A stretch of DNA of 64,000 nt from Scatophagus argus (taxonomy: Eukaryota; Chordata; Actinopteri; Scatophagidae), in assembly GCF_020382885.2 (NCBI RefSeq), contig NW_025421231.1, positions 1 to 64,000 of the forward strand, given 5' to 3'. This document shows positions 1 to 40,281 of the stretch, in pieces. The notes beneath the pieces are model-generated. The model did not search any database. It was given only the letters and a program-made list of their open reading frames with translations, and had not been told where the DNA came from. Each line of letters opens with the position of its first letter. The first letter of the stretch is position 1. The translations under genes and the position numbers were made by a program.

Positions 1-68
1 CATTGTAATCACTAATCATAACTAAAAATGAAACACTACCGTGACTATTACTGAATTGGAGCTCTCAC

Positions 69-3000
69 CAGACTGTTACTGGGTGTGTGTGCAGGCCTTT
101 TCTTTCGCAGCTGGATAAACCTTGGCTTCACACTGGCCTCCTTTCGCTCCTCCACTGATGACTCCTCCTGCTGTCTCTCTCTTTCCTCCTCACAGGTCTT
201 TCTCTCCTCCGTGGTGTCACACAGCTTTGTCTTTCGATGAACATTCTGTGAAGGTTGTGCCAAGGTTTTAGCTGTGACTGACCTTACATAAGCCTGCTTC
301 ATCTTACAAAAATTTCTCAATGAAAATCTACCAATTCCAGATCTTTGGTTTTGTTTATTGTGGTGTACACCTACCCGGGGAGGGATTTGTGCAGTCATCT
401 TTGCCTTTTTTGTCATTTCCTACAGACAGAAAAACTCATATTATCAGATCGACAAAATAGTGACGGCCAAGCAAGCCAGGAACCAGCTGACCAAGGAGTT
501 CAAAGTGGCCAAGAGGAGCTATAGTGAGAGCAGCAACTGACCAACTACAGGAGTCCATCCCCCCATCCTGCAGAAAACCCCAACAGGCTGTACGAAGTAT
601 CCCCCTGCTTCAAACACTCCATCATCACCCCAGTTCCCAAGAAGCCCTCCATCACTGGAATAAATGCCTACAGGCCCATCGCCCTGACGTCTGTAGTCAT
701 GAAATCCTTTGAGAGACTGGTGTTGAACCACCTGAAGGGCGTCACAGGCCCCTTGCTGGATCCCCTGCAGTTTGCCTACAGGGCAAATAGGTCGGCAGAT
801 GATGCTGTCAACATGGGACTGCACTACATCCTGCAGCACCTCGACTCCCCCGGATCATATGCAAGGATCCTGTTCAACACCATCGCCCCCGAAATCCTCC
901 AATACAAGCTCACCCAGTTCACGGTGCCTGCCCCCACCTGTCAGTGGATCACCAGCTTCCTGACTGACAGGAGGCAGCAGGTGAGGCTGGGGAGCATCAC
1001 ATCAAGCACCTGGACTATCAGCACCAGCGCCCCCCAGGGGTGTGTCTGTCCCCGATGCTCTTCTCCCTCCCCGACTGCACCTCAGGGCCCCCGTCTGTGA
1101 AACTCCTGAGTTTACAGATGATACCACCACCATTGGTCTAACCCGGGACGGTGATGAGTCTGCTTACAGACAGGAGGTGGAGCTGGAGCTGGTCCACTGG
1201 TGAAGTCGGAACCACCTGGAGCTGAACACGCTCAAGACTGTGAAGATGACAGTGGACTTCAGGAGAAGCCCCCCCCCCTCACCATCCTCAACAACACAGT
1301 GTAGACCGTGGACACCTTCAAGTTTCTGGGAACCACAATCTCCTGGACCTGAAGTGGACCTCCCACATAGACACTGTCCGGAAAAAGGCCCAGCAGAGGT
1401 TGTATTTCCTGAGACAGCTCAGGAAGTTCAACTTGCCACAGGAACTGCTGATCATCTTCTACACTGCCATCATCCAGTCTGTCCTGTGCACAGCCATCAC
1501 TGTGTGGTTTGGATCAGCCACCAAACAGGACAGGATCAGACTGCAACAGAGAATCAGGTCAGCAGAGAGGATCATCGGGGCCAACCTGCCTTCCATCCAG
1601 GACCTTTATCGGTCCAGGGTCAGGAAATGGGCAGGCCACAAACTTTTTGAACCCCTCCCCTCTGGAAGGCGCTACAGAGCACTGTACGCCAAGACCACCA
1701 GACACAAAGACAGTTTCTACCCCCAGGCTGTCACTCTGGTCAACTGCAATAGTCAGAGTGTCAGGAAATGAACACAAACAGTAAAAAAAACCCACTGCAC
1801 TAAACTGTCCTCACTGTACAGTTGTAATATTTCTAATATTTTGTGTCTTTTCACACAGTATTTTTGTATTCATACCGTACAATTGTAAATAGTCTGTCTA
1901 TCCATGTAAATACTACACGTCTATTTTTTGTTCCTCTTACCCCTCTAACTTATTCCCCCCCCCCCCGTACATTGAGCAATGGCAACCCGAAAACACATTC
2001 CCTGTTTTTCCTTGTAAAAACCTGGCCAATAAACCTGATTCTGATTCTGAAATGTGTTCAACGAAATTTGGTTGAGCTCCAGTGTGACTCTTATCATACT
2101 TAATGCCAGTGTCTTTAAAGTGGGACAATTCAATTTGACAGATAAAGTCTGCAATTTTGCATTCTGTGAATGCAAAAGGAAAAATGATGACATAAATAAG
2201 AGCAAAGGAGAAATACTACTAGAATTTAGAATTGCAACAACCTTCAAACAGAAAAATTTGGCGGATATTACAGATTAGGGAAATTATGGCTAGTTTGATT
2301 TCACTTCCTCTCCTTACCTCCACTGTTGTCACTTATATCATCATCATGAAATGTTATTGTCATGGTTATGACTGGGTGGGACTGGTTTACTAAACTGGAG
2401 CTCTCACCAGTCTGTTCCTGGGTGTGGGTGCAGGCCATTTCTTTCGCAGCTGGGGAACCCTTCGCTTCACACTTGTCTCTTCTTCCTCCTCCTCCTCTTC
2501 CTCCTCTTCTTCTTCTGTTCCATTCTTTGGGGGCTGCCAATCAACTGACCCCTCATCTTCAGAGGAGCTCAGCTCAGAGCTCTGATTTAATGAGACAAAG
2601 AGTTATTTTTCTCACTTAGGACACAAACATTATTCTAAGCACAGAAACTACTAAAGACAACTCTTGCCAGTCTGTTCCTGGGTGTAGGTGCAGGCCATTT
2701 CTTTCGCAGCTGGGGAACCCTTCGCTTCACACTGGTCTCTTCTTCCTCCTCCTCCTCTTCCTCCTCTTCTTCTTCTGTTCCATTCTTTGGGGGCTGCCAA
2801 TCAACTGACCCCTCATCTTCAGAGGAGCTCAGCTCAGAGCTCTGATTTAATGAGACAAAGAGTTATTTTTCTCACTTAGGACACAAACATTATTCTAAGC
2901 ACAGAAACTACTAAAGACAACTCTTGCCAATCTGTTCCTGGGTGTAGGTGCAGGCCATTTCTTTCGCAGCTGGGGAACCCTTCGCTTCACACTGGTCTCT

Positions 3001-4603
3001 TCTTCCTCCTCCTCCTCTTCCTCCTCTTCTTCTTCTGTTCCATTCTTTGGGGGCTGCCAATCAACTGACCCCTCATCTTCAGAGGAGCTCAGCTCAGAGC
3101 CCTGATTTAATGAGACAAAGAGTTATTTTTCTTACTTAGGACACAAACATTATTCTAAGCACAGAAACTACTAAAGACAACTCTTGCCAGTCTGTTCCTG
3201 GGTGTAGGTGCAGGCCATTTCTTTCGCAGCTGGGGAACCCTTCGCTTCACACTGGTCTCTTCTTCCTCCTCCTCCTCTTCCTCCTCTTCTTCTTCTGTTC
3301 CATTCTTTGGGGGCCAATCATCTGACCCCTCATCATCAGACGAGCTCACCATCTGTTTTAGATAAGATGAAATGATCTTTTTCTCACTCACTTACCCTAT
3401 ACACTGAAACTGATGAAGACGACTCGTACTGATCTTTGACTGGCTGAGGATAGCTCTTTCTTGTGTAAGTTTAGAACCCTTCCAGTCACCTGCTGCTTGT
3501 TTCCATGGTTCTTCTTTTCAGGTTCTTGCATGCCCTTCCTTGTGTCCTCCTGAGGTGATTCTGTCACCACCTCGTCATAGTCTGCACCTGCCCTCTTGCT
3601 CCTCTCTTTCTTCTTCTTTTCCTTATCTGCATAGCTTGACACTGCCATCATCGTCAATGCTCTGCTCTGAACTGTGTACGCTGTCGGGTCATCCGCTGTA
3701 AAATGAAAGGTTAAAATCATAAACTGATACTATTCAAGCCAACAGAATTGTTTTTCAATTTTTTATGCTGATGTAACCTTGGTAAAATCTTTTGGCTGTT
3801 TGGGGATCATGGCACATGAATGATGCTACCCTCTCATATTTTTCAAGTCCCAGCTGCCGCTTGGCCTGATGGGAGAAATCATGCACAAAGTACATAAGAT
3901 AAAAATGTTGCACCTTGTAATAATAATAATAATAAAGACTTTAAAGGAACAAAAATGTGTCTTACAAAAGTGGCAACAGAAGAACGTAACATATTGAATG
4001 TGGGGCCAGGACCCAGATTCAGTCCTTCCCAGGCACCCTTAAAATACTCTGGGAGTTTCAACAAGGGCCCTCCAACAGTGGTATGAAAAAACGTGGATGC
4101 CTCTGAGCCTCCCTCAATTTGACCACGAAGTCTGTTGTAACGCCTGAACCAGGCATACTCCTCTGGTTTCAGTGGTATGGCTGCTTGCCCAAAGTATCTC
4201 TGGGTTTTGTGCTCCTGAATCTATTTTTAAAAGACATTTGATTAGTGTTTCTAGCTAAGGTGTTAAACAATAGATGCATGTTGTGTTCACTTGTTTCATT
4301 TTAATATTTGTACTTACACGAATGACACGACAACCTCTTGTAGTCTTTTCAGCAGTCTTGACCTCTTTCACGGTCATGTTGGTGATTACTCCCTTCCGAT
4401 GTCCAGTTGTTGCAATGAGAAACCCACCAAGTAGTCCAAAAAACAGTCTGAGTTTCCTTATGTTATGTGGTTCCTTCGCAAGATCATCTTTTAAAGAAGA
4501 GGAACAACATTTTATGCATGAGCGTTCAAAGACAGTCACTTTTAGGTCTGGAGCTGATTTAGCAACTCTATTTTCCACTACCATAACCCACCAAACAATA
4601 ATT
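69..4603 (-). CDS. Left-arm copy of the tyrosine-recombinase-like gene (partial)
   Basis: This is the mirror image of the + strand gene in the right arm, transcribed away from the palindrome centre. Exons by symmetry: 4318-4603 and 3966-4220 (recombinase core), 3778-3865 (core end with His and Tyr), 3490-3695 (Lys/Glu-rich linker), then 3188-3352, 2928-3101, 2668-2841 and 2408-2581 (acidic tandem exons), then 375-419 and 69-302. All lie in one open phase. The rest of the gene would lie beyond the window start. At two codons of the last exon (Thr and Ala instead of Pro and Val) this arm matches the copy at 12.5 kb rather than its mirror exon at 9.35 kb. The 5' start is missing. It may be a partial pseudogene or a live copy. 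Confidence 0.6.
470..2047 (+). mobile_element. 5'-truncated LINE (CR1/L2/Rex1-type reverse transcriptase), left arm
   Basis: A decayed reverse-transcriptase ORF is spread over three frames: a part with the [12 protein letters not shown] motif near 770-815, a PQGCV motif near 1034 and a [11 protein letters not shown] stretch near 1405. The expected segment with the first catalytic Asp is missing after position 870, and the frame shifts several times. The 3' end carries a short GATTCT-type tail near 2035-2048, as fish LINEs of the CR1/L2/Rex group usually do. It sits in an intron of the left-arm gene in the opposite orientation, so it was present before or copied with the inverted duplication. 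The exact LINE family is uncertain. Confidence 0.8.
2408..3352 (-). repeat. Tandem array of four acidic exons, left arm
   Basis: Four exon-plus-intron units with a 260-base period, mirroring 6299-7243. Exons are 3188-3352 (165 nt) and 2928-3101, 2668-2841, 2408-2581 (174 nt each). Each encodes a Ser/Asp start, a run of about 13 Glu, then a basic [19 protein letters not shown]-type end. The last unit ends in a GT donor (CTG then GTGAGA); the first three have GC donors. Confidence 0.85.
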
Positions 4604-4785
4604 CTGTACAAATTGGAAGACACCCTAGTTAGCAGACAGCACATAGGCATGGACCCAGTTTCTAAATAGTCAATCTAAAATCTTGAAGGGCTCCTCAACA
4701 CAATTTGATTGAATATACATAGTACCAATTTATCTCAAGGAAATTCAATCGAATGCAACTGGACTTGGTTATTTGTCTTCGAAGA

Positions 4786-4865
4786 ACCTTGACTAGGCTA
4801 GGACTAGTCCCAGGCTAGTCAAGCGAGCATGAACTGATGAAGCCTCTTGGATGAGAGGTGAAACG
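4786..4865. other. Spacer at the palindrome centre, with its own hairpin
   Basis: This 80-base loop separates the arms. Inside it, 4788-4823 is a smaller inverted repeat with 16 of 18 pairs matching around 4805.5, including a perfect 10-base core (GGACTAGTCC). It is not centred on the large palindrome (4825.5). The right part (about 4824-4880) carries a GATGAAGCCTCTTGGATGAG-type motif. I remember this as an abundant interspersed repeat in teleosts; that identification is from memory. Confidence 0.75.
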
Positions 4866-5047
4866 TCTTCAAAGACAAATAACTAAGTCCAGTTGCATTC
4901 GATTGAATTTCCTTGAGATAAATTGGTACTATGTATATTCAATCAAATTGTGTTGAGGAGCCCTTCAAGATTTTAGATTGACTATTTAGAAACTGGGTCC
5001 ATGCCTATGTGCTGTCTGCTAACTAGGGTGTCTTCCAATTTGTACAG

Positions 5048-5873
5048 AATTATTGTTTGGTGGGTTATGGTAGTGGAAAATAGAGTTGCTAAATCAGCTC
5101 CAGACCTAAAAGTGACTGTCTTTGAACGCTCATGCATAAAATGTTGTTCCTCTTCTTTAAAAGATGATCTTGCGAAGGAACCACATAACATAAGGAAACT
5201 CAGACTGTTTTTTGGACTACTTGGTGGGTTTCTCATTGCAACAACTGGACATCGGAAGGGAGTAATCACCAACATGACCGTGAAAGAGGTCAAGACTGCT
5301 GAAAAGACTACAAGAGGTTGTCGTGTCATTCGTGTAAGTACAAATATTAAAATGAAACAAGTGAACACAACATGCATCTATTGTTTAACACCTTAGCTAG
5401 AAACACTAATCAAATGTCTTTTAAAAATAGATTCAGGAGCACAAAACCCAGAGATACTTTGGGCAAGCAGCCATACCACTGAAACCAGAGGAGTATGCCT
5501 GGTTCAGGCGTTACAACAGACTTCGTGGTCAAATTGAGGGAGGCTCAGAGGCATCCACGTTTTTTCATACCACTGTTGGAGGGCCCTTGTTGAAACTCCC
5601 AGAGTATTTTAAGGGTGCCTGGGAAGGACTGAATCTGGGTCCTGGCCCCACATTCAATATGTTACGTTCTTCTGTTGCCACTTTTGTAAGACACATTTTT
5701 GTTCCTTTAAAGTCTTTATTATTATTATTATTACAAGGTGCAACATTTTTATCTTATGTACTTTGTGCATGATTTCTCCCATCAGGCCAAGCGGCAGCTG
5801 GGACTTGAAAAATATGAGAGGGTAGCATCATTCATGTGCCATGATCCCCAAACAGCCAAAAGATTTTACCAAG
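5048..5873 (+). other. Tyrosine recombinase catalytic core exons
   Basis: The first exon has a TTGHRKG motif with the first catalytic Arg at 5253-5255; it is open upstream to about 5001 and the acceptor ending at 5047 is my choice. The second exon has EHKT with Lys at 5443-5445, and an [10 protein letters not shown] motif with Arg at 5665-5667 where HxLRH would be expected. The third exon has [11 protein letters not shown], giving His at 5840-5842 and Tyr at 5867-5869 with eight residues between them, close to the family spacing. Order and spacing fit the R-K-HxxR-H-Y signature, with the HxxR His replaced by Asn. Phases agree at both introns (0 and 1 in my reading). Confidence 0.75.
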
Positions 5874-8800
5874 GTTACATCAGCATAAAAAATTGAAAAA
5901 CAATTCTGTTGGCTTGAATAGTATCAGTTTATGATTTTAACCTTTCATTTTACAGCGGATGACCCGACAGCGTACACAGTTCAGAGCAGAGCATTGACGA
6001 TGATGGCAGTGTCAAGCTATGCAGATAAGGAAAAGAAGAAGAAAGAGAGGAGCAAGAGGGCAGGTGCAGACTATGACGAGGTGGTGACAGAATCACCTCA
6101 GGAGGACACAAGGAAGGGCATGCAAGAACCTGAAAAGAAGAACCATGGAAACAAGCAGCAGGTGACTGGAAGGGTTCTAAACTTACACAAGAAAGAGCTA
6201 TCCTCAGCCAGTCAAAGATCAGTACGAGTCGTCTTCATCAGTTTCAGTGTATAGGGTAAGTGAGTGAGAAAAAGATCATTTCATCTTATCTAAAACAGAT
6301 GGTGAGCTCGTCTGATGATGAGGGGTCAGATGATTGGCCCCCAAAGAATGGAACAGAAGAAGAAGAGGAGGAAGAGGAGGAGGAGGAAGAAGAGACCAGT
6401 GTGAAGCGAAGGGTTCCCCAGCTGCGAAAGAAATGGCCTGCACCTACACCCAGGAACAGACTGGCAAGAGTTGTCTTTAGTAGTTTCTGTGCTTAGAATA
6501 ATGTTTGTGTCCTAAGTAAGAAAAATAACTCTTTGTCTCATTAAATCAGGGCTCTGAGCTGAGCTCCTCTGAAGATGAGGGGTCAGTTGATTGGCAGCCC
6601 CCAAAGAATGGAACAGAAGAAGAAGAGGAGGAAGAGGAGGAGGAGGAAGAAGAGACCAGTGTGAAGCGAAGGGTTCCCCAGCTGCGAAAGAAATGGCCTG
6701 CACCTACACCCAGGAACAGATTGGCAAGAGTTGTCTTTAGTAGTTTCTGTGCTTAGAATAATGTTTGTGTCCTAAGTGAGAAAAATAACTCTTTGTCTCA
6801 TTAAATCAGAGCTCTGAGCTGAGCTCCTCTGAAGATGAGGGGTCAGTTGATTGGCAGCCCCCAAAGAATGGAACAGAAGAAGAAGAGGAGGAAGAGGAGG
6901 AGGAGGAAGAAGAGACCAGTGTGAAGCGAAGGGTTCCCCAGCTGCGAAAGAAATGGCCTGCACCCACACCCAGGAACAGACTGGCAAGAGTTGTCTTTAG
7001 TAGTTTCTGTGCTTAGAATAATGTTTGTGTCCTAAGTGAGAAAAATAACTCTTTGTCTCATTAAATCAGAGCTCTGAGCTGAGCTCCTCTGAAGATGAGG
7101 GGTCAGTTGATTGGCAGCCCCCAAAGAATGGAACAGAAGAAGAAGAGGAGGAAGAGGAGGAGGAGGAAGAAGAGACAAGTGTGAAGCGAAGGGTTCCCCA
7201 GCTGCGAAAGAAATGGCCTGCACCCACACCCAGGAACAGTCAGGTGAGAGCTCCAGTTTAGTAAACCAGTCCCACCCAGTCATAACCATGACAATAACAT
7301 TTCATGATGATGATATAAGTGACAACAGTGGAGGTAAGGAGAGGAAGTGAAATCAAACTAGCCATAATTTCCCTAATCTGTAATATCCGCCAAATTTTTC
7401 TGTTTGAAGGTTGTTGCAATTCTAAATTCTAGTAGTATTTCTCCTTTGCTCTTATTTATGTCATCATTTTTCCTTTTGCATTCACAGAATGCAAAATTGC
7501 AGACTTTATCTGTCAAATTGAATTGTCCCACTTTAAAGACACTGGCATTAAGTATGATAAGAGTCACACTGGAGCTCAACCAAATTTCGTTGAACACATT
7601 TCAGAATCAGAATCAGGTTTATTGGCCAGGTTTTTACAAGGAAAAACAGGGAATGTGTTTTCGGGTTGCCATTGCTCAATGTACGGGGGGGGGGGGAATA
7701 AGTTAGAGGGGTAAGAGGAACAAAAAATAGACGTGTAGTATTTACATGGATAGACAGACTATTTACAATTGTACGGTATGAATACAAAAATACTGTGTGA
7801 AAAGACACAAAATATTAGAAATATTACAACTGTACAGTGAGGACAGTTTAGTGCAGTGGGTTTTTTTTACTGTTTGTGTTCATTTCCTGACACTCTGACT
7901 ATTGCAGTTGACCAGAGTGACAGCCTGGGGGTAGAAACTGTCTTTGTGTCTGGTGGTCTTGGCGTACAGTGCTCTGTAGCGCCTTCCAGAGGGGAGGGGT
8001 TCAAAAAGTTTGTGGCCTGCCCATTTCCTGACCCTGGACCGATAAAGGTCCTGGATGGAAGGCAGGTTGGCCCCGATGATCCTCTCTGCTGACCTGATTC
8101 TCTGTTGCAGTCTGATCCTGTCCTGTTTGGTGGCTGATCCAAACCACACAGTGATGGCTGTGCACAGGACAGACTGGATGATGGCAGTGTAGAAGATGAT
8201 CAGCAGTTCCTGTGGCAAGTTGAACTTCCTGAGCTGTCTCAGGAAATACAACCTCTGCTGGGCCTTTTTCCGGACAGTGTCTATGTGGGAGGTCCACTTC
8301 AGGTCCAGGAGATTGTGGTTCCCAGAAACTTGAAGGTGTCCACGGTCTACACTGTGTTGTTGAGGATGGTGAGGGGGGGGGGCTTCTCCTGAAGTCCACT
8401 GTCATCTTCACAGTCTTGAGCGTGTTCAGCTCCAGGTGGTTCCGACTTCACCAGTGGACCAGCTCCAGCTCCACCTCCTGTCTGTAAGCAGACTCATCAC
8501 CGTCCCGGGTTAGACCAATGGTGGTGGTATCATCTGTAAACTCAGGAGTTTCACAGACGGGGGCCCTGAGGTGCAGTCGGGGAGGGAGAAGAGCATCGGG
8601 GACAGACACACCCCTGGGGGGCGCTGGTGCTGATAGTCCAGGTGCTTGATGTGATGCTCCCCAGCCTCACCTGCTGCCTCCTGTCAGTCAGGAAGCTGGT
8701 GATCCACTGACAGGTGGGGGCAGGCACCGTGAACTGGGTGAGCTTGTATTGGAGGATTTCGGGGGCGATGGTGTTGAACAGGATCCTTGCATATGATCCG

Positions 8801-11800
8801 GGGGAGTCGAGGTGCTGCAGGATGTAGTGCAGTCCCATGTTGACAGCATCATCTGCCGACCTATTTGCCCTGTAGGCAAACTGCAGGGGATCCAGCAAGG
8901 GGCCTGTGACGCCCTTCAGGTGGTTCAACACCAGTCTCTCAAAGGATTTCATGACTACAGACGTCAGGGCGATGGGCCTGTAGGCATTTATTCCAGTGAT
9001 GGAGGGCTTCTTGGGAACTGGGGTGATGATGGAGTGTTTGAAGCAGGGGGATACTTCGTACAGCCTGTTGGGGTTTTCTGCAGGATGGGGGGATGGACTC
9101 CTGTAGTTGGTCAGTTGCTGCTCTCACTATAGCTCCTCTTGGCCACTTTGAACTCCTTGGTCAGCTGGTTCCTGGCTTGCTTGGCCGTCACTATTTTGTC
9201 GATCTGATAATATGAGTTTTTCTGTCTGTAGGAAATGACAAAAAAGGCAAAGATGACTGCACAAATCCCTCCCCGGGTAGGTGTACACCACAATAAACAA
9301 AACCAAAGATCTGGAATTGGTAGATTTTCATTGAGAAATTTTTGTAAGATGAAGCAGGCTTATGTAAGGTCAGTCCCAGCTAAAACCTTGGTACAACCTT
9401 CACAGAATGTTCATCGAAAGACAAAGCTGTGTGACACCACGGAGGAGAGAAAGACCTGTGAGGAGGAAAGAGAGAGACAGCAGGAGGAGTCATCAGTGGA
9501 GGAGCGAAAGGAGGCCAGTGTGAAGCCAAGGTTTATCCAGCTGCGAAAGAAAAGGCCTGCACACACACCCAGTAACAGTCTGGTGAGAGCTCCAATTCAG
9601 TAATAGTCACGGTAGTGTTTCATTTTTAGTTATGATTAGTGATTACAATGGAGTTAAGAAGAGAAATTGTTGGTAAATCTAAATTTGGTTGAACAAATTT
9701 CCACATTTAAGCCACTGATATGGCTGACACCTTATCTGTGGCATGTGCACTTGTGGGGTCTGTTCCAACACCAGCCATAATTTACCTAATCTCTGTTATC
9801 TTCCTCATTATTCTGTTTGAAGGTTGCTGCAATTCTAAATGACAATAACATTTAATTTTTAAGTATGATAACTAACAACAGCAGAGCTGGGGAGAAAAAC
9901 AATCCACATTGAAGCCACTGATATATAGAAACTTGTCCGTCACTATTTTGTCGATCTGATAATATGAGTTTTTCTGTCTGTAGGAAATGACAAAAAAGGC
10001 AAAGATGACTGCACAAATCCCTCCCCGGGTAGGTGTACACCACAATAAACAAAACCAAAGATCTGGAATTGGTAGATTTTCATTGAGAAATTTTTGTAAG
10101 ATGAAGCAGGCTTATGTAAGGTCAGTCCCAGCTAAAACCTTGGTACAACCTTCACAGAATGTTCATCGAAAGACAAAGCTGTGTGACACCACGGAGGAGA
10201 GAAAGACCTGTGAGGAGGAAAGAGAGAGACAGCAGGAGGAGTCATCAGTGGAGGAGCGAAAGGAGGCCAGTGTGAAGCCAAGGTTTATCCAGCTGCGAAA
10301 GAAAAGGCCTGCACACACACCCAGTAACAGTCTGGTGAGAGCTCCAATTCAGTAATAGTCACGGTAGTGTTTCATTTTTAGTTATGATTAGTGATTACAA
10401 TGGAGTTAAGAAGAGAAATTGTTGGTAAATCTAAATTTGGTTGAACAAATTTCCACATTTAAGCCACTGATATGTATAAACTTCACTATTCACTATCTTC
10501 ACTATTTTGTGTATCTGATAACATGGGTTTTTTCTGTCTGTAGGAAATCTCAAAAAAGGCAAAGATGGCTGTGGCCGTACAAGTCCTTTCACAGGTGGGT
10601 GTACGTTTTCAAGTCAGTTTTATTAACATAATGCCAAATCATAACACAGGTTATCTCAAGGCACTTTACATGTAGAGCAGGTCTAAACAGTACTCTGTGT
10701 GAAAATGATATACAAAGAAAGACCCAACAGTTTCCACCATGAACAGCACTTGGCGACAGTGACAAGAAGAAAAACTTCCTTTAAGAGACAAAAACCTCGA
10801 GCAGAACCAGACTCAGGTTGGGGGGGGGGGGGGTCATCTGCCTCGACCGAGTGGGTTTATAGAGGCACTATAAGTCAAAGTGAACTTTATTGTCAATCAC
10901 ACTATGTAAATCATTACACACGGGATCAAAATTGCATTTCCTCAAAACTCCAAAAGTGCAATCTAACATTTAGCATTTAACATTTGACACATATTTACAA
11001 CACACACATATAGCATAAAGTGTATGCGGTATCAACACTATATCCATAAACACAAGATACACAGAGAGACAAGACAGTGGACACACACATACCTACATAC
11101 ATTACCTGTCAAAAGGAAGTCTGAGGTAGCCTATGATAATATGTAGTGATAATAAAGTGCAATATGAAAGTGCAAAGTGCAGAAGCAGCATAGACAAAAA
11201 AGTGTTAGTAATTCAATGTCCTCATAACAGTAACTTGTGACAACTACAACCTTTGCACACCAGTTGTTATTGATGAAAATACACACTCCACCTCCCCGAG
11301 ATTTACCACTGAGAGCATGACTCCTACCCGCCTGGAATGTTGTTAGTCCGTCCACCTGAATGGCGCTGTCCGGAACGATGTGGTTAAGCCACGTCTCAGT
11401 GAGGATGATGGCGTTGCAGTCTCTCACCTTTCTTTGTGTGGTTAAATTCAGTCTGAGGCAGTCCATTTTGTTTTCCAGGATGGAAGGAAGTGCAGGTCTG
11501 TATGGGTTTGCTTTTAGCCTGGCGCTGATACCCGCTTGTTTGCCCCACTTGCTGGGTCTAGCACACCTCTTGCGGCACGTGCTGGGTCTCTCATACCGCT
11601 TTCGCCACCTCCAATGTCGGCTGGTGGTGGGAGGAGAGTCCACTGCCTTGCAGGCTCCTTGGTCTTCCCGATGTAGGATGCCTGTTGGGGTTTTCTGCAG
11701 GGTGGGGGGATGGACTCCTGTAGTTGGTCAGTTGCTGCTCTCACTATAGCTCTTCTTGGCCACTTTGAACTCCTTGGTCAGCTGGTTCCTGGCTTGCCTG

Positions 11801-14800
11801 TACAGGGCCCGATCCCCACTTCTGTAGGCTTCCTCCTTGGCCCAGTAGTTTAATACAAAGATAAGAAAGACGTTGCTTCTTTGGATTGGTCGCAGGTGAT
11901 CCGTGATGATTGGTCCTCCCTGGAATCTGCTGTCGTGTTTTGGGCGGATCTTGCCTATTCGGGTGTGTAGGCTCCTAATCAATGATGTCAACACTTGCGT
12001 ACACAGCATCACATACGTGGACGCAATGAGCCATTATCTCCTGAGATGATGAACATGCTGGATGTTCAGCGCTACTATCAGTGTTTTCTGTTCCATGTTA
12101 GTGTCATGTCACCCATCATTATGCTGACATATAGATTATTTGGCTGACACCTTATCTGTGGCATGTGCACTTGTGGGGTCTGTTCCAACACCAGCCATAA
12201 TTTACCTAATCTCTGTTATCTTCCTCATTATTCTGTTTGAAGGTTGCTGCAATTCTAAATGACAATAACATTTAATTTTCAAGTATGATAACTAACAACA
12301 GCAGAGCTGGGGAGAAAAACAATCCACATTGAAGCCACTGATATATAGAAACTTGTCCGTCACTATTTTGTCGATCTGATAATATGAGTTTTTCTGTCTG
12401 TAGGAAATGACAAAAAAGGCAAAGATGACTGCACAAATCCCTCCCCGGGTAGGTGTACACCACAATAAACAAAACCGAAGATCTGGAATTGGTAGATTTT
12501 CATTGAGAAATTTTTGTAAGATGAAGCAGGCTTATGTAAGGTCAGTCACAGCTAAAACCTTGGCACAACCTTCACAGAATGTTCATCGAAAGACAAAGCT
12601 GTGTGACACCACGGAGGAGAGAAAGACCTGTGAGGAGGAAAGAGAGAGACAGCAGGAGGAGTCATCAGAGGAGGAGAGAAAGACCTGTGAGGAGGAAAGA
12701 GAGAGACAGCAGGAGGAGTCATCAGAGGAGGAGAGAAAGACCTGTGAGGAGGAAAGAGAGAGACAGCAGGAGGAGTCATCAGTGGAGAGAAAGACCTGTG
12801 AGGAGGAAAGAGAGAGACAGCAGGAGGAGTCATCAGAGGAGGAGAGAAAGACCTGTGAGGAGGAAAGAGAGAGACAGCAGGAGGAGTCATCAGTGGAGAG
12901 AAAGACCTGTGAGGAGGAAAGAGAGAGACAGCAGGAGGAGTCATCAGAGGAGGAGAGAAAGACCTGTGAGGAGGAAAGAGAGAGACAGCAGGAGGAGTCA
13001 TCAGAGGAGGAGAGAAAGACCTGTGAGGAGGAAAGAGAGAGACAGCAGGAGGAGTCATCAGAGGAGGAGAGAAAGACCTGTGAGGAGGAAAGAGAGAGAC
13101 AGCAAGAGGAGTCATCAGTGGAGAGAAAGACCTGTGAGGAGGAAAGAGAGAGACAGCAGGAGGAGTCATCAGAGGAGGAGAGAAAGACCTGTGAGGAGGA
13201 AAGAGAGAGACAGCAAGAGGAGTCATCAGTGGAGAGAAAGACCTGTGAGGAGGAAAGAGAGAGACAGCAGGAGGAGTCATCAGTGGAGAGAAAGACCTGT
13301 GAGGAGGAAAGAGAGAGACAGCAGGAGGAGTCATCAGAGGAGGAGAGAAAGACCTGTGAGGAGGAAAGAGAGAGACAGCAGGAGGAGTCATCAGTGGAGA
13401 GAAAGACCTGTGAGGAGGAAAGAGAGAGACAGCAGGAGGAGTCATCAGAGGAGGAGAGAAAGACCTGTGAGGAGGAAAGAGAGAGACAGCAGGAGGAGTC
13501 ATCAGTGGAGAGAAAGACCTGTGAGGAGGAAAGAGAGAGACAGCAGGAGGAGTCATCAGTGGAGGAGAGAAAGACCTGTGAGGAGGAAAGAGAGAGACAG
13601 CAGGAGGAGTCATCAGTGGAGAGAAAGACCTGTGAGGAGGAAAGAGAGAGACAGCAAGAGGAGTCATCAGTGGAGAGAAAGACCTGTGAGGAGGAAAGAG
13701 AGAGACAGCAGGAGGAGTCATCAGAGGAGGAGAGAAAGACCTGTGAGGAGGAAAGAGAGAGACAGCAGGAGGAGTCATCAGTGGAGAGAAAGACCTGTGA
13801 GGAGGAAAGAGAGAGACAGCAGGAGGAGTCATCAGTGGAGAGAAAGACCTGTGAGGAGGAAAGAGAGAGACAGCAGGAGGAGTCATCAGTGGAGGAGCGA
13901 AAGGAGGCCAGTGTGAAGCCAAGGTTTATCCAGCTGCGAAAGAAAAGGCCTGCACACACACCCAGTAACAGTCTGGTGAGAGCTCCAATTCAGTAATAGT
14001 CACAGTAGTGTTTCATTTTTAGTTATGATTAGTGATTACAATGGAGTTAAGAAGAGAAATTGTTGGTAAATCTACATTTGGTTGAACAAATTTCCACATT
14101 TAAGCCACTGATATGTATAAACTTCACTATTCACTATCTTCACTATTTTGTGTATCTGATAACATGGGTTTTTTCTGTCTGTAGGAAATCTCAAAAAAGG
14201 CAAAGATGGCTGTGGCCGTACAAGTCCCTTCACAGGTGGGTGTACGTCTTCAAGTCAGTTTTATTAACATAATGCCAAATCATAACACAGGTTATCTCAA
14301 GGCACTTTACATGTAGAGCAGGTCTAAACAGTACTCTGTGTGAAAATGATATACAAAGAAAGACCCAACAGTTTCCACCATGAACAGCACTTGGCGACAG
14401 TGACAAGAAGAAAAACTTCCTTTAAGAGACAAAAACCTCGAGCAGAACCAGACTCAGGTTGGGGGGGGGAGGTGATCTGCCTCGACCGAGTGGGTTTATA
14501 GAGGCACTATAAGTCAAAGTGAACTTTATTGTCAATCACACTATGTAAATCATTACACACGGGATCAAAATTGCATTTCCTCACCTTTCTTTGTGTGGTT
14601 AAATTCAGTCTGAGGCAGTCCATTTTGTTTTCCAGGATGGAAGGAAGTGCAGGTCTGTATGGGTTTGCTTTTAGCCTGGCGCTGATACCCGCTTGTTTGC
14701 CCCACTTGCTGGGTCTAGCACACCTCTTGCGGCACGTGCTGGGTCTCTCATACCGCTTTCGCCACCTCCAATGTCGGCTGGTGGTGGGAGGAGAGTCCAC

Positions 14801-16460
14801 TGCCTTGCAGGCTCCTTGGTCTTCCCGATGTAGGATGCCTAGCTCGCTGAGTGTTTCGAGTTCCACAACCAGATTAACTCCAGAAAGATTTTTTTCATAG
14901 TCCGAGTAATGAGCTTCTGTTATAGGCTATTCTTGTGCAAGGTTAGAAATGGGTCTACAGTTTGCCAATATGCCTGGATCTAGAGTAGGCTTTTTCAGAA
15001 GAGGTTTAACTACAGCTAATTTAAATGACTGAGGTACATAACCTGTAACTAGAGACAGGTTTATCATGTCTAAAAAAGAATCAGAATCAGAATCCTTTAT
15101 TAATCTCTTGAGGAAAATTCTTGGATTGCAGTGCTCCATTTCACAGTACAGATAAATTATAAATAAAGTAACATAACGAAGATACAAATAAAATACGAAG
15201 ATGCAAATAAAATATTATATAAAGCTAAAATTCTTGTGCACTTGACACATATCTGAAGATCAGTATTGGTGTATTTTACTTGAGAACCTGTTAGTGTTTA
15301 TTTTTTATTTTTTTCCTCAGATGAATCAGGCTTATGTAAGCCCAGCCACAGCTGAAGTCCTGGCAAAATATTCTCAGAACATTTGTCCAAAGCCATCATC
15401 AGGGTTGGAAATAATTTTTCATCAAAGTGAGCTGTTCAAGAGAAAGAGAAAGACCTGCAACAAAAAACATATTGACCAACAGGTGGCAGCATGTGAGGAG
15501 GAGGAAAGAAATATCTGCGAGGAAAAAAGAGAGAAACAGCAGGAGGAACATCAGAGGCAAGAAGAACGACATGGAGAAGAAGTGACAAAGGAGAGGGGGT
15601 GTCCAAAGAGAAAAGGACCAGGTGGAGAAGAGGCAGTGAAAGAGGAGGGGAGGTGTCTGAGGAGAAGAGGACAACATGGAGACAAAGAGGTCAAAGCAGG
15701 GAGAGGGTGTCCAAGGAGAAAAGGACCAGGTGAAGAAGAGGCAGTGAAAGAGGAGGGGAGGTGTCTGAGGAGAAGAGGACAACATGGAGACAAAGAGGTC
15801 AAAGCAGGGAGAGGGTGTCCAAAGAGAAAAGGACCAGGTGAAGAAGAGGCAGTGAAAGAGGAGGGGAGGTGTCTGAGGAGAAGAGGACAACATGGAGACA
15901 AAGAGGTCAAAGCAGGGAGAGGGTGTCCAAAGAGAAAAGGACCAGGTGAAGAAGAGGCAGTGAAAGAGGAGGGGAGGTGTCTGAGGAGAAGAGGACAACA
16001 TGGAGACAAAGAGGTCAAAGCAGGGAGAGGGTGTCCAAGGAGAAAAGGACCAGGTGAAGAAGAGGCAGTGAAAGAGGAGGGGAGGTGTCTGAGGAGAAGA
16101 GGACAACATGGAGACAAAGAGGTCAAAGCAGGGAGAGGGTGTCCAAGGAGAAAAGGACCAGGTGAAGAAGAGGCAGTGAAAGAGGAGGGGAGGTGTCTGA
16201 GGAGAAGAGGACAACATGGAGACAAAGAGGTCAAAGCAGGGAGAGGGTGTCCAAGGAGAAAAGGACCAGGTGAAGAAGAGGCAGTGAAAGAGGAGGGGAG
16301 GTGTCTGAGGAGAAGAGGACAACATGGAGACAAAGAGGTCAAAGCAGGGAGAGGGTGTCCAAGGAGAAAAGGACCAGGTGAAGAAGAGGCAGTGAAAGAG
16401 GAGGGGGGGTGTCTGAGGAGAAGAGGACAACATGGAGCAGGAGAGAGGAAAAAAAGATGA
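5048..16460 (+). CDS. Tyrosine-recombinase-like gene with expanded repeat exons (5' incomplete)
   Basis: Seventeen exons can be joined in one open phase: 5048-5333, 5431-5685, 5786-5873, 5956-6161, 6299-6463, 6550-6723, 6810-6983, 7070-7243, 9232-9276, 9349-9582, 9984-10028, 10101-10334, 10544-10594, 12404-12448, 12521-13975, 14185-14235 and 15321-16460 (stop 16458-16460), about 1,606 codons. Exons 1-3 form a tyrosine recombinase catalytic core of the kind seen in Crypton and related fish proteins. The rest is low-complexity acidic and basic sequence. Most borders are GT-AG; three tandem exons have GC donors. The N-terminal DNA-binding half is not upstream, where the palindrome centre lies; a related half sits at 30.4-31.7 kb on the minus strand. 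The catalytic His of the HxxR motif is Asn, so activity is doubtful. I infer a domesticated or relic recombinase protein; expression is unknown. Confidence 0.65.
5956..6161 (+). other. Lys/Glu-rich linker exon of the recombinase-like gene
   Basis: Acceptor TTTTACAG and donor CAG/GTGACT bound a 206-nt exon in phase with its neighbours. It encodes [11 protein letters not shown], then a run of Lys and Glu ([11 protein letters not shown]) that could serve as a nuclear localisation signal, then a polar acidic tail. It directly follows the catalytic Tyr exon. Confidence 0.65.
6299..7243 (+). repeat. Tandem array of four acidic exons, right arm
   Basis: Exons are 6299-6463 (165 nt) and 6550-6723, 6810-6983, 7070-7243 (174 nt each), with an exact 260-base period and nearly identical introns. 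All are multiples of three and start in phase 0, so any number can be included or skipped without breaking the frame. Each encodes [13 protein letters not shown] or [12 protein letters not shown], about 13 Glu, then [12 protein letters not shown] and a Pro/Thr end. The first three end in G/GCAAG (GC donors), the last in CAG/GTGAGA. Confidence 0.85.
7604..9181 (-). mobile_element. 5'-truncated LINE (CR1/L2/Rex1-type), right arm
   Basis: This is the mirror copy of the LINE at 470-2047, with the same deletions and frameshifts. On the minus strand the RT runs from about 8952 to 7880, and the tail of GAATCA units lies at 7602-7615. It splits the intron between exons 7070-7243 and 9232-9276. The homologous intron of the next module copy (before 9984) lacks the insertion, which shows where it entered (near 9181-9195). 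Confidence 0.8.
9232..9582 (+). other. Exon module copy A of the recombinase-like gene
   Basis: Exon 9232-9276 (45 nt, [15 protein letters not shown]) and exon 9349-9582 (234 nt, starting MKQAYVRSV and ending [10 protein letters not shown]). Both are phase 0 with GT donors. The second exon contains a single copy of the [18 protein letters not shown] segment that is expanded to 23 copies in module C. This module lies at the outer edge of the right palindrome arm. Confidence 0.7.
9984..10594 (+). other. Exon module copy B of the recombinase-like gene
   Basis: Exons 9984-10028 and 10101-10334 repeat module A at an offset of 752 bases and look identical to it. A third exon, 10544-10594 (51 nt, [17 protein letters not shown]), resembles the first and looks like an older duplicate. 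All are phase 0. The duplicated segment begins near 9720 and recurs near 12141. Confidence 0.7.
10609..10862 (+). repeat. Common teleost interspersed repeat, copy 1
   Basis: Contains the recognisable blocks AGTTTTATTAACATAATG, TCAAGGCACTTTACA, CACTTGGCGACAGTGAC and CATCTGCCTCGACCGAGTGG. I know these as conserved parts of a very abundant fish repeat. A G-run interrupts it at about 10818-10832. A related and better-preserved copy is at 28156-28411. Confidence 0.7.
10870..12012 (-). mobile_element. Scrambled LINE fragments (endonuclease part, linker and 3' tail)
   Basis: On the minus strand, 12012-11700 encodes a linker region ([20 protein letters not shown]) that normally lies between endonuclease and RT. 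It is followed by 11690-11230 with the start of an APE endonuclease ([12 protein letters not shown], then ILTETWLNH, then [11 protein letters not shown]), then a 3' tail near 10870-10940. The order is rearranged, so this is a composite of at least two insertions or an internally inverted or deleted element. It lies inside the intron after module B. Confidence 0.7.
12404..14235 (+). other. Exon module copy C with the expanded minisatellite exon
   Basis: Exons 12404-12448, 12521-13975 (1,455 nt) and 14185-14235 repeat module B at an offset of 2,420 bases, except that the middle exon is 1,221 nt longer because of the minisatellite. All junctions keep phase 0. The middle exon encodes 485 residues, mostly Glu, Arg, Gln, Ser and one Cys per unit, predicted to be a long charged helix or disordered. 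Confidence 0.7.
12614..13888 (+). repeat. Coding minisatellite, 23 units of 54 or 57 bp
   Basis: The unit is [17 protein letters not shown] preceded by V (54 bp) or by EE or VE (57 bp). The length difference from the single-copy exon (407 codons) equals 11 units of 18 plus 11 units of 19 residues, so 23 units in all. Both unit lengths are multiples of three, so the frame never breaks. Units are almost identical; a few have CAAGAGG in place of CAGGAGG. The two unit types alternate irregularly. Confidence 0.93.
14250..14503 (+). repeat. Common teleost interspersed repeat, copy 2
   Basis: Same element as at 10609-10862, carried along in the 2,420-base tandem duplication. It shows the same flanks and a shorter G-run near 14461. 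Confidence 0.7.
14511..14880 (-). mobile_element. LINE fragment with an internal deletion relative to copy B
   Basis: The start (3' tail near 14511-14583) matches 10870-10940, then the sequence jumps to the part matching 11424-11680. The LINE in the second tandem copy has therefore lost about 486 bases between two CCTCA-like points. The minus strand encodes the start of the endonuclease region ([12 protein letters not shown]). Confidence 0.7.
14905..15190 (-). mobile_element. Two further short LINE fragments
   Basis: On the minus strand, about 15070-14930 encodes [21 protein letters not shown] and then a PISNL motif, the RT N-terminal region of a CR1/L2-like LINE. Next to it, 15075-15190 holds GAATCAGAATCC followed by a LINE 3' end. 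They lie in the intron before the last exon of the recombinase-like gene. Confidence 0.65.
15321..16460 (+). other. Terminal exon of the recombinase-like gene
   Basis: The acceptor TTTTTTCCTCAG is followed by a 380-codon exon ending in TGA at 16458-16460. It starts [15 protein letters not shown], clearly related to the MKQAYVRSV start of the module exons, so it is a diverged duplicate of the same exon type. It then runs through a charged segment ([20 protein letters not shown]) into a 36-residue tandem repeat. No further coding exon is apparent downstream. Confidence 0.7.
15593..16430 (+). repeat. Coding minisatellite, 108-bp unit, about 8 copies
   Basis: The anchor GTGTCTGAGGAG recurs at about 15653, 15761, 15869, 15977, 16085, 16193, 16301 and 16409, an exact 108-base period. 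Each unit encodes 36 residues with [20 protein letters not shown] and GCP(R/K)RKGPG, so two Cys and many Arg/Lys per unit. Units differ mainly at one Arg/Lys codon. Confidence 0.95.
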
Positions 16461-23916: not shown

Positions 23917-25508
23917 CACTACCGTTCAAAAGTTTGGGGTCACTTAGAAATTTCCTTATTTTTTAAAGAAAATCACAGTTTTTTTCAGTGAAGATAACTT
24001 TAAACTAATCACAAATACACTCTATACATTGCTAATGTGGTAAATGACTATTCTACCAGGAAATATATGGTTTTTGGTGCAATATCTACATAAGTGTATA
24101 GGGGCCCATTTTCAGCAACTATTACTCCAGTGTTCTAAAGGTACAGTGTGTTTGCTCATTGCATCAGAAGGCTAATGGATTATTAGAAAACCCTTGTGCA
24201 ATCCCTTGTGAAAACAGTTTAGCTAATTAGATAAGCTATAAAACTGATCCTCCTTTGAGCAGGTTGAGTATCTGGAGCATCACATTTGTGGGGTCGATTA
24301 AATGCTCAAAATGGCCAGAAAAAGAGAACTTTCATGTGAAACTTGACAGTCTATTCTTGTTCTTAGAAATGAAGGCTATTCCATGCGAGAAATTGCCAAG
24401 AAACAACGGTGAAACAACGGTGAAACAGCGGTGAAACAGCGGTGAAACAACGGTTTCTTACAACGGTGTGTACTACTCTCTTCAGAGGAGAGCACAAACA
24501 GGCTCTAACCAGAGTAGAAAGAGAAGTGGGAGGCCCTGCTGCACAACTGAGCAAGAAGATAAGTACATTAGAGTCTCTAGTTTGAGAAATAGACGCCTCA
24601 CAGGTCCTCAACTGGCAGCTTCATTAAACGCCAGTGTCTACATCTACATTGAAGAGGCGACTCCGGGATGCTGGTCTTCAGGGCAGAGTGGCAAAGAAAA
24701 AGCCATATCTGAAACTGGCTAATAAAAGAAAAAGATTAATATGGGCAAAAAGATTGGAAAAAGTGTTATGGACGGATGAATCGAAGTTTGAGGTGTTTGG
24801 ATCACACAGAAGAACATTTGTGAGATGCAGAAAAACTGAAAGGATGCTGGAAGAGTGCCTGACGCCATCTATCAAGAATGGTGGGGGTAACGTCATGGTC
24901 TGGGGTTGCTTTGGTGCTGGTAAGGTGGGAGATTTGTTCAGGGTAAAAGGGATTTTGAATAAGGAAAGCTATCACCAACACCATGCCATACCCTGTGGAC
25001 AGCGCTTGATTGGAGACAATTTTATCCTACAGCAGGACAATGACCCAAAGCACACTTCAACATTGTGCAAGAACTATTTAGAGAAGAAGCAAGCAGCTGG
25101 TATTCTATCTGTAATGGAGGGGCCAGCGCAGTCACCTGATCTAAACCCCATTGAGGTATTGTGGGAGCAGCTTGACCGTATGGTACGCAAGAAGTGCCCA
25201 TCCAGCCAATCCAACTTGTGGGAGGGGCTTCTAGAAGCGTGGGGTGAAATTTCTCCAGATTACCTCAACAAATTAACTAGAATGCCAAAGGTCTGCAATG
25301 CTGTAATTGCTGCAAATGGAGGATTCTTTGACGAAAGAAAAGTTTGAAGGGACAAATTATTATTTCAAATACAAATCATTATTTCTGACCTTGTCAATGT
25401 CTTGACTATATTTTCTGTTCATTTTACAGCACATGGTGGTAAATAAATGTGAGTTTTTATGGAAAACACAAAATTGTCTGGGTGACCCCAAACTTTTGAA
25501 CGGTAGTG
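23917..25508 (+). mobile_element. Tc1/mariner element, 1,592 bp
   Basis: The ends are inverted copies of CACTACCGTTCAAAAGTTTG, followed by GGGTCAC, and both are flanked by the TA target (23915-23916 and 25509-25510). Length is normal for Tc1. It is inserted in the 3' part of the L1-like LINE. The ends are intact, but the transposase gene is broken. Confidence 0.95.
24310..25347 (+). pseudogene. Tc1 transposase, inactivated
   Basis: The N-terminal part starts MARKRELSCET and meets a stop, then continues in other frames (SMREIAKKQ near 24385). The DNA-binding region shifts frame near 24640. The catalytic part, 24634-25347, is open, with LWTDESKFEVFG (first Asp), FILQQDNDPKHTS (second Asp) and SPDLNPIEVLWEQL (Glu), the DD34E pattern of Tc1. 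A small repeat of GAAACARCGGT units near 24405-24455 has expanded inside the DNA-binding region. Confidence 0.9.
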
Positions 25509-26585: not shown

Positions 26586-27545
26586 TTAACATTGTAGATT
26601 TCCTCCTTCCCTTTTCATGACCTCACATCCCCAGTATGCAGCGCTATGCCCCCCACCACAATTACAGCATTTTGGATGTACTCTCTCTCCACATTCACCA
26701 TATTCCACCATATTCATTTCAACAATTTCCCGCAAGGGATTAATAAAGGATTTCTGATTCTGATTCATGGTCTCCTCCACATCTTCTTTCTTCTCTGCAT
26801 ACTTTTGCCACATGACCAAACTTCTGGCACTTGAAACATCATATTGGCTTTTAAATAATATTCCCTTACTTTGTACCTCATAAATCCAAAATACACTTCA
26901 GAGGGTAAATNNNNNNNNNNNNNNNNNNNNNNNNNNNNNNNNNNNNNNNNNNNNNNNNNNNNNNNNNNNNNNNNNNNNNNNNNNNNNNNNNNNNNNNNNN
27001 NNNNNNNNNNNNNNNNNNNNNNNNNNNNNNNNNNNNNNNNNNNNNNNNNNNNNNNNNNNNNNNNNNNNNNNNNNNNNNNNNNNNNNNNNNNNNNNNNNNN
27101 NNNNNNNNNNNNNNNNNNNNNNNNNNNNNNNNNNNNNNNNNNNNNNNNNNNNNNNNNNNNNNNNNNNNNNNNNNNNNNNNNNNNNNNNNNNNNNNNNNNN
27201 NNNNNNNNNNNNNNNNNNNNNNNNNNNNNNNNNNNNNNNNNNNNNNNNNNNNNNNNNNNNNNNNNNNNNNNNNNNNNNNNNNNNNNNNNNNNNNNNNNNN
27301 NNNNNNNNNNNNNNNNNNNNNNNNNNNNNNNNNNNNNNNNNNNNNNNNNNNNNNNNNNNNNNNNNNNNNNNNNNNNNNNNNNNNNNNNNNNNNNNNNNNN
27401 NNNNNNNNNNAAGTAAAATAAGTGTGCACTGCTATTTTCCATCATAATTTCCATTATTGTACAGGGCAAGAAGATGCAAGAAGCATTAACAGCAATAGTG
27501 TTAGCAGCAATAGCAAGAGCAGTGGGAATTTGGATCCTCACCATC
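26586..27545 (-). pseudogene. LINE ORF1 (gag-like) remnant across an assembly gap
   Basis: Read on the minus strand, 26910-26600 encodes FGFMRYKVREY and then a knuckle-like segment, with a further CCNCGGGHSAAYWGCEV motif near 26640-26680, a zinc-knuckle pattern (C-x2-C-x3-H-x6-C) found in ORF1 of I/jockey-type LINEs. A short LINE tail (GAATCAGAATCAG and neighbours, 26719-26766) is inserted in it. The 500-base gap prevents linking to the open sequence at 27411-27545. Confidence 0.6.
26911..27410. other. Assembly gap (500 N)
   Basis: Exactly 500 unknown bases, a conventional placeholder, so the true distance is not known. Confidence 1.
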
Positions 27546-28741: not shown

Positions 28742-28893
28742 ATATGGTAATTTGGCTTTAAAAGCTACTTGTAAACATGTAGTCTCGTGTGTCTCTTCCT
28801 GGTCTCCCCCTCTCCCTTGTCGCCAAGCGCTTGCGGAAATTCAGCAGAGAAGTGGAAATGTTGTGTTTCTCTATGTTTTGAGACCTTGTAGAT

Positions 28894-30372: not shown

Positions 30373-31706
30373 CCTCTGACTCTTGAAATATCCTGCAGGA
30401 ACAACAGATCTCCATTTGGTTTGGGGGAGTTTGCCATGAAGTGCAGGAAGTGGAACACATGAGTGGCACGCTGCTTTGCATTTTCCTGAACTTTCCTGGG
30501 AGGGTTGGCACCTTCCACATGGCCTTTAAAGTCTCTCACCAGTTTCACTGAGGGACATGTAAATAAATAATTAGACATTACACAATGGTAAACATGTGCC
30601 AGTAAGATTCATAATCCTAAATATTTTGATAGAAATGTGATATTCACCATAAGAAGAGGCGTCTGATGCTGCATTTTTTGGCACACGCTTATATTTCATA
30701 ACCTGGAAAAATATGAAATGAGTTGCACACATCCAAACTTAATGTCCAGAACTGGTCATATTGATATGTAAGTAGAATGAAATGACCCTCACATTTGCAC
30801 GCATTGTAGAAGAATGAATGTTTGCTGGCTAAGGATGAGGATGCTGTGGTAATCAGCGGCAAAGGTGAAAGAGCAGTGACAGCAGTTGGTGATGCTCTTG
30901 AAGGGGACATGGATGGTCCACAGTCAGTTGGTACTAGGCTCACAGAATCTGTGGCACCAAGTACAGTGGAGTCTACGTCTGTGTTACTTGGTGATGGCAA
31001 AGCTGAGAGAGTTGCACTGGTATTATCTGAAGGAGGAGGTGTTTCTGGGGCAGGTGTGGATGGCTCACAGTCAGTGGATCCTGGACCTACAGAATCTGTT
31101 GCATGTATGGCAGTGGACAGAGATGATGCAGGTGTAAAGGTGGCTGTAGTGTTACTGAGGGTCGTTGTCCTTTCAGACGCCCTTGCAGCTATCTCCCTTT
31201 CGACAGCCTCTTCAATGGCAGATTCATCCACTTCATCCATATGTGACACAATTGGTGGTTGGGGATGGCTGGCCCTCAACAGTGCCAGTTCCCTTGCAAT
31301 GTACCTGTCCTTTGCCCTTTCCATATAAAGTTTAGCCACAGGTTGCTGAAAAAAAGTACAACATTGCTTTAAATGCAAATGTATTTTGTCTAACTCTGTT
31401 CTACGTCACAGTTTCATACCTTATGTCATATCATATCTACTTCTCCTTTGCTCTATTTTTAAGGACAACCAGCAAATCAATATAATATTTCCAAAACACT
31501 TACTGTCTGTGAGCCAACTTGCTTAAAAGACTAAGCTCTTCTTTGTTTTTCACTTTCTCTGTGACTTTGAGATGCTGCATTATATCCGCGTATCTAAGTC
31601 CACAAATTGGACACTGATGCCCAGCCGTTTGATTGCTGGGCCTTCTTCTGGGTTGAGGAGACTTTGCAGGCACAGGATTTTTCTGTGCTTCGGCCTCCTC
31701 TGGTCC
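30373..31706 (-). CDS. 5' half of a recombinase-family gene (partial, possibly separated)
   Basis: Minus-strand exons: 31706 to about 31505 (HQCPICGLRYADIMQHL, a zinc-finger-like start); about 31345 to 30800 (MERAKDRYIARELALLRAS, then an acidic helix and a Ser/Thr/Pro-rich region); about 30705-30645 (KYKRVPKNAASDASSY); and about 30558-30373 (VKLVRDFKGHVEG, KQRATHVFHFLHFMANS, ending DISRVRG). The last looks like the core-binding domain that precedes a tyrosine recombinase catalytic domain. The last two exons join in phase. The first two junctions do not match in my reading, so there may be a frameshift or an unseen exon. The donor at 30372 leaves phase 2, which fits the acceptor of the core exon at 5048 or its mirror at 4603. 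Confidence 0.5.
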
Positions 31707-39960: not shown

Positions 39961-40281
39961 TGGCATAGAGAGAGAATGCCTGAAAATGTGGCCAAGACCC
40001 TTGTGGGCCCTTGACTCAAATTTGCCTCTGCATTGAAATCTTGGGAGGACTAGCCGTAATTATTAGTAGTAGAGTTGTAATGGCTTTCTACATTGTTTTC
40101 AGGGAGCTCTTTTAGACTTTGACAAGGCTTTTACCCTAAACATTTAAGTACAGAAATAAAGAGGACTATTACAGTAACATATTCAAATATTGTGTTTTTA
40201 AAATGCAAATTTATCATTATTTCTGTCGAACCCTACAGATCACACTGATGCTGTTAATCCTTCAAGCCCCAAAACATTCCC

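Follow-up and report, generated by a model that had tools for sequence, protein, structure and literature searches.

What kind of gene, if any, occupies positions 5048-16460 near the start of an unplaced contig in the Scatophagus argus assembly? The stretch analysed here, called the window throughout, comprises bases 1-64000 of that contig (C26, NW_025421231.1; 146,890 bases). The initial annotation had proposed a domesticated recombinase fused to a growing low-complexity tail, and had argued that its phase-matched later exons are not expected of a dead element. We found a tyrosine-recombinase (YR) core spread over four exons, followed by 13 candidate tail exons. We think it rather likely that one member of a multi-copy, YR-descended fish gene family lies here, without its 5' end and probably no longer functional, and that the product of the family is a DNA-binding protein rather than a transposase. 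Recombinase descent and tail growth were borne out, while the copy itself is damaged and the argument that it is not dead fails.

The recombinase core and its active site

Re-reading of the DNA gave AG acceptors, GT donors and agreeing phases for a first exon ending at 5333 and for exons B, C and D:

5098..5333, plus strand: exon A', opening part of the YR domain, with the GHR arginine (placed by phase and AG/GT sites)
5431..5685, plus strand: exon B, catalytic domain with the HKT lysine and Asn-x-x-Arg
5786..5873, plus strand: exon C, with the catalytic His (MCHD) and Tyr (FY)
5956..6161, plus strand: exon D, start of the charged tail

The previously annotated first-exon start at 5048 is out of phase with upstream exon N7; 5098 is the more likely start, because it alone is in phase with N7 of the related gene on contig C25. 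By alignment, the core residues Arg, Lys, Asn-x-x-Arg, His and Tyr are present in that order in the window, as had been claimed. A core open by chance was rejected because both the exon structure and the codon-position bias are shared across paralogues.

Relatives were sought in the same assembly (570.7 Mb, 48 contigs), where the core protein matched at least 65 stretches, grouped by eye into at least 24 places, two of which are the arms of a palindrome in the window. The active-site alignment has 21 rows, with both window arms and near-identical copies included. Lys is kept in 21/21 rows and Arg-I in 18/21 (Q in L029, L040 and L047), while Arg-II is kept in 18 of the 20 rows covering it (H in L031 and L032). 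His-III and Tyr are each present in all 14 rows aligned in that exon. The HxxR His, correctly reported as Asn in the window copy, was observed in none of the 20 covering rows (Asn in 16, Ser in 2, Thr in 2; L031 and L032 are poorly aligned there). The loss is therefore old and no lesion of the window copy. This His varies in some active YRs, and its absence is compatible with kinship.

The core has been under deep purifying selection. For the six paralogues where it was computable, the ratio of non-synonymous to synonymous substitution rates (dN/dS) against the window copy was 0.190 (L028), 0.193 (L030), 0.192 (L032), 0.103 (L041), 0.117 (L043) and 0.248 (L040). Changes between the window and L028 number 47, 31 and 82 at codon positions 1, 2 and 3, over 180 codons. 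In-frame stops were found in L030, L032, L040 and L043. An identical exon-B stop is shared by L029, L030, L031, L032 and L037 (on C33, C28 at 99k, C31, C7 and C40), so a broken copy was itself duplicated later.

The truncated 5' end and the fuller copy on C25

At least seven upstream exons are absent ahead of the window core, cut off by a 4.8 kb palindrome, and 5048 is not where the gene starts. Its left arm begins at contig base 1, and some of the missing exons reappear beyond a gap, on the other strand:

1..4785, minus strand: palindrome left arm, inverted copy of 4866-9650 (99.85%, 7 mismatches, no gaps)
4786..4865, no strand: loop of 80 bases, enclosed by a short natural inverted repeat
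4866..9650, plus strand: palindrome right arm
26911..27410, no strand: 500-N gap separating the core and tail from the N-terminal-exon piece
28889-30092: hAT-like insertion in the intron after N5 (open reading frame (ORF) 29111-30010, by inspection)
30373..30547, minus strand: exon N5, first part of the SAM-like domain, projected from C25
30648..30702, minus strand: exon N4, projected from C25
30793..31345, minus strand: exon N3, frameshifted relative to C25 by a net deletion of 149 bp
31504..31706, minus strand: outermost segment of the N-terminal exon block 30373-31706

The short natural inverted repeat around the loop is shared with C18 and C25; neither has a long palindrome after it, and in both the sequence beyond the turn-round point continues linearly into further exons. 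The palindrome is probably an assembly fold-back, perhaps joining two haplotypes; we favour this because of its position at the contig end, the N gap and the linear homologues on C18 and C25. The same observations disfavour two true genes in the arms. The seven arm differences are not decisive: two fall within the short natural inverted repeat, and some agree with other repeat copies. Given these differences, a genuine inverted duplication at 1-9650 is possible. Flipping the left piece would bring the exon order into agreement with C18 and C25. The hAT-like insertion is found in C25 and C26 and is absent from the same intron in C18. The case is a caution that fold-back palindromes can truncate genes read at contig ends.

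The upstream zinc-finger-like and SAM-like exons were found on C18 and C25. For C25 an open 14-exon model of 1,125 codons was obtained, in which six non-zero junction phases agree; the N-terminal exons of C18, C37 and the window are all broken. On C25 the order runs from two zinc-finger-like exons through a low-complexity linker, a SAM-like domain and a YR domain (R-K-(Asn/Ser)-R-H-Y) to a charged, repeat-expanded tail, which we propose as the layout of the family. The SAM region matched 40 stretches in the genome. It stands directly upstream of the core at loci including C18:19732738-19733211, C28:98166-98639 and others on C40, C33, C7 and C14, and lacks a nearby listed core match at C18:20111110, 19519900 and 19447703, C25:39330 and 158972, C27:55510, C36:37177 and C24:12979532.

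How the copies spread bears on a different explanation, namely that they are remains of a decaying YR mobile element (Crypton-like or a YR retrotransposon) that is mobile or was so recently, with the selection being for transposition. The family is multi-copy and many copies are broken, and most aligned copies retain R, K, the second R, H and Y, unlike the human DUF3504 genes as described in the available text of PMC3212892. Yet the gene is intron-rich and its exon order is common to diverged loci. Homology between C18 and C25, the only pair counted, continues for ~8.3 kb downstream of the stop, as far as the compared DNA reaches, so this pair represents a segmental duplication or haplotypes and not element transposition. 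The uniform replacement of the HxxR His also speaks against an element, as does a gene model without a reverse transcriptase exon: Pfam scans of the C25 model parts, which did not include its last exon, returned no reverse transcriptase domain, and the window's reverse-transcriptase-like ORFs are, by inspection, in antisense orientation within an intron of the tail. A genome-wide PF00589 search at E<=0.001 gave no match, which says little because it missed the present family too. Taken together, we consider a mobile element unlikely.

Genomic position touches on another proposal, in which the host uses the protein as an active recombinase or topoisomerase-like enzyme to cut and rejoin DNA, possibly at the ends of chromosomes. 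Several places cluster at 19.4-20.1 Mb on C18, ~1.9-2.5 Mb from the contig end. Long contigs carry 11 of the core-match places, and six of these are no more than 115 kb from a contig end (C24 counted as not near), a limit picked after inspection of the data; the count becomes 6/13 when three C18 places from the SAM search are added and C24 is left out. The C7 end has 10 TTAGGG in its last 749 bases, the only TTAGGG run among the five contig ends read; at C5 (1 CCCTAA), C20 (1 TTAGGG), C14 (none) and C21 (none) the repeat content does not establish a telomeric end. In keeping with such an enzyme, diverged members conserve Lys, both Arg, the third His and the Tyr nucleophile. Against it, subtelomeric location is common among duplicating gene families of any function, the HxxR His is missing from every covering row, L051 seems to be without the Tyr, and no substrate site is known. 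An active enzyme appears quite improbable to us.

Tail exons and their tandem arrays

The 13 candidate tail exons downstream of exon D are:

6299..6463, plus strand: E1, GC donor
6550..6723, plus strand: E2, 260-bp tandem unit, GC donor
6810..6983, plus strand: E3, GC donor
7070..7243, plus strand: E4, GT donor
9232..9276, plus strand: F1
9349..9582, plus strand: G1, weak acceptor, start shifted 2 nt from the first model
9984..10028, plus strand: F2
10101..10334, plus strand: G2, start shifted 2 nt from the first model
10544..10594, plus strand: F-prime 1
12404..12448, plus strand: F3
12521..13975, plus strand: G3, enlarged by a 57/54-bp array, start shifted 2 nt from the first model
14185..14235, plus strand: F-prime 2
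15321..16460, plus strand: last exon with the stop, holding a 108-bp array

With the three G-exon acceptors shifted by 2 nt, the 17-exon model comes to 4,772 nt, or ~1,591 codons (4,766 nt before the shift; ~1,607 codons with the 5048 start). The reported ~1,600 open codons in 17 phase-matched exons could thus be rebuilt, with the reservation that 2,136 of 4,766 nt (45%) are supplied by two arrays open in several frames. Tandem Repeats Finder (TRF) places 23 copies of the 57/54-bp unit at 12613-13903, inside G3, and 7.8 copies of the 108-bp unit at 15593-16437, inside the last exon; the 57-bp array is stop-free in 4/6 frames and the 108-bp array in 3/6. The tail exons belong to a few types, namely E (260-bp units), F, G, F-prime and a last exon resembling G, all of phase 0. 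Phase kept over 11 kb had been taken as a sign that the element is not dead. This argument does not hold, because the 13 exons duplicate those few types, and any duplicate of a phase-0 exon will be in phase. The openness of the tail is likewise weak evidence, because more than one frame is open in each array and E1-E3 can be spliced only via GC donors. The G-exon acceptor has a poor pyrimidine tract, by inspection of the sequence. More generally, open frames within tandem arrays mean little.

We also weighed whether the tail is open merely as noise, from non-coding minisatellites and tandem exons that follow the remnant of a dead recombinase. The multi-frame arrays, the GC donors of E1-E3 and the broken N-terminal exons of the window all fit this account. 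It is harder to reconcile with phase 0 in all tail exons, with a C25 last exon that stays open for 240 codons with a shorter array, with E-like frames that recur in L028 (splice sites not checked), and with diverged members on C5, C28 and one on C20, whose exon-C region runs into long charged frames. We regard noise as a possible account of the tail, though on the unlikely side.

Repeat numbers in the tail differ between copies. By exact pattern, E units number six in C18, four in the window and one each in C25 and C37; C25 has a second with one base changed, and C37 has two by reading frame. F and G exons, also by exact pattern, number four each in C18, three each in the window and none in C25 or C37. 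Copies of the 57-mer were counted as 4 in C18, 25 in the window and 0 in both C25 and C37, and the 108-mer is present in 8.8, 7.8 and 4.2 copies (TRF) in C18, the window and C25. The family core was kept by selection long ago, and the charged tail is still growing by repeat copying. The paralogue L028, at 62% identity, has repeated E-like reading frames, so the family may long have extended its tail through duplicated exons.

Repeats are also found elsewhere in the window. Long tandem segmental repeats occupy 42135-64000 (e.g. 44540-48951, 52128-56540 and 60539-64000 at ~99.6%), and 50070-55589 and 58479-64000 are 99.0% identical. A 239-codon open frame at 24628-25347 has a motif that gives it the look of a Tc1/mariner transposase. 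The open frames at 40258-41162 look like those of an immunoglobulin V-domain surface protein, transmembrane part included.

Function and comparison with known systems

We propose that the SAM-like and catalytic domains clamp DNA, as in YRs, that the zinc fingers would add specificity and that the charged tail may serve as a flexible scaffold. In this account copies spread via segmental duplication, and many decay. DNA binding is the most likely function, with residual catalysis possible; a chromatin or chromosome-end DNA-binding protein is more likely than a working transposase. Members of the family are presumably expressed, act in the nucleus and bind DNA without recombining it.

Several observations weigh against this interpretation. 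Pairs within younger groups have higher dN/dS (0.29-0.57). Values of dS above 1 are close to saturation, and saturation is reached against L048-L052. Between C25 and C18, the N-terminal exons have 9 changed sites in 1,229 and the introns 13 in 1,526, with 7 non-synonymous codon changes and 1 synonymous. For C25 and the window, N3-N5 exons differ at 8/783 sites and introns at 2/371 (non-synonymous:synonymous 5:2); for C25 and C37, the values are 19/1,245 and 14/829 (11:6). Recent copies are thus without clear constraint and look neutral. The suggestion that the core does not evolve neutrally, judged by dN/dS among same-genome paralogues, holds for the deep comparisons (0.10-0.25) and does not extend to these. 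The old selection could also date from a mobile-element stage of the family. The open C25 model uses two GC donors and is without a start exon, and it is possible that C18, C25 and C26 represent haplotypes and not separate loci. No exon C turned up in L040-L043 or L047. In L051 (C20:20588801-20590800, from 1363), which is outside the 14-row count, the exon-C-like frame MMCHSIADKFCEV apparently has Cys for the catalytic Tyr, and this slightly reduces our confidence. The Pfam matches are all sub-threshold, and a solved-structure search with the family profile and the C25 SAM plus catalytic protein gave no YR match. Its best hits were a cyclic-nucleotide synthase at E 0.41 and a hydrolase at E 1.3, which we rejected as probable chance matches.

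The profile searches gave sub-threshold matches to phage-type integrase families and none to DUF3504. At E<=1, PF00589 matched 4/4 catalytic-domain proteins (E 0.066 to 3.8e-5) and 4/6 members of the family alignment A1, all below the 27.1-bit curated cut-off. Both proteins covering the SAM-like region matched integrase profiles at the expected place, also sub-threshold (PF02899, E 0.024, C25; PF13495, E 0.035, C5). PF12012 (DUF3504) matched no family protein or locus; genome-wide it matched 19 stretches, on C17, C15, C11, C6, C8, C3 and C2. NCBIfam and PHROGs gave nothing useful (phrog_1 integrase in 1/6 members, E 0.11), and the viral_contigs scan flagged 6 stretches by pattern, of which 0 were confirmed. 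We met no recognisable description of the family among titles and abstract openings, with subscription papers mostly outside the scope, nor in the available portions of PMC9341512, PMC5753468, PMC9004415 and PMC8869645.

The family resembles phage-type tyrosine recombinases and integrases (PF00589 with PF02899 or PF13495) in its apparent two-domain order and in R, K, R, H and Y; it differs in its sub-threshold scores, Asn/Ser for the first His, zinc-finger-like exons, long charged tail and multi-exon structure. Crypton DNA transposons (CryptonA, F, I, S and V) are R-H-R-Y animal YRs known in fish, according to available parts of PMC3212892, PMC9341512, PMC5753468 and PMC8869645. The fish family appears to share this type of catalytic domain; judged by those descriptions, it is set apart by many introns, the missing HxxR His and the lack of any element ends seen. 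The one pair counted, C18 and C25, which may be haplotypes, is collinear well past the stop and gives no sign of discrete elements with common ends. LAP2alpha and ZNF451 offer another likeness, as a vertebrate exaptation of a YR retroelement (DIRS1-like), although their domains derive from the first (GAG) ORF of the retrotransposon and not from the recombinase, according to the accessible text of PMC4495291. DIRS/Ngaro elements carry reverse transcriptase and RNase H beside the YR, whereas the Pfam scans of C25 parts showed no reverse transcriptase domain.

The DUF3504 genes (KCTD1, KIAA1958, QRICH1, ZMYM2/3/4 and WOC) likewise carry a YR-derived domain within longer host proteins. In the part of PMC3212892 available to us, these Crypton-derived host genes are highly conserved, several are named for zinc fingers, and the human domains have lost the catalytic Tyr and second Arg. 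The fish family, in contrast, keeps both residues in the window, C25 and most rows, and is multi-copy, with a C18 cluster and copies near contig ends. There is a slim chance that some fish carry a large, chromosome-end-associated YR family with the Tyr nucleophile, both Arg, Lys and one His in place and the other His changed to Asn/Ser, whose members have kept the ability to cut and religate DNA on behalf of the host, as in rearranging or protecting subtelomeres, with a length-variable charged tail. A multi-copy fish family in which a nearly full active site is kept alongside zinc-finger-like exons, a domain for clamping DNA and a charged tail that changes fast would represent a second route of YR exaptation. 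Where the human Crypton-derived DUF3504 genes lost the active site (PMC3212892, in the same part), the fish family can be tested for residual DNA cleavage.

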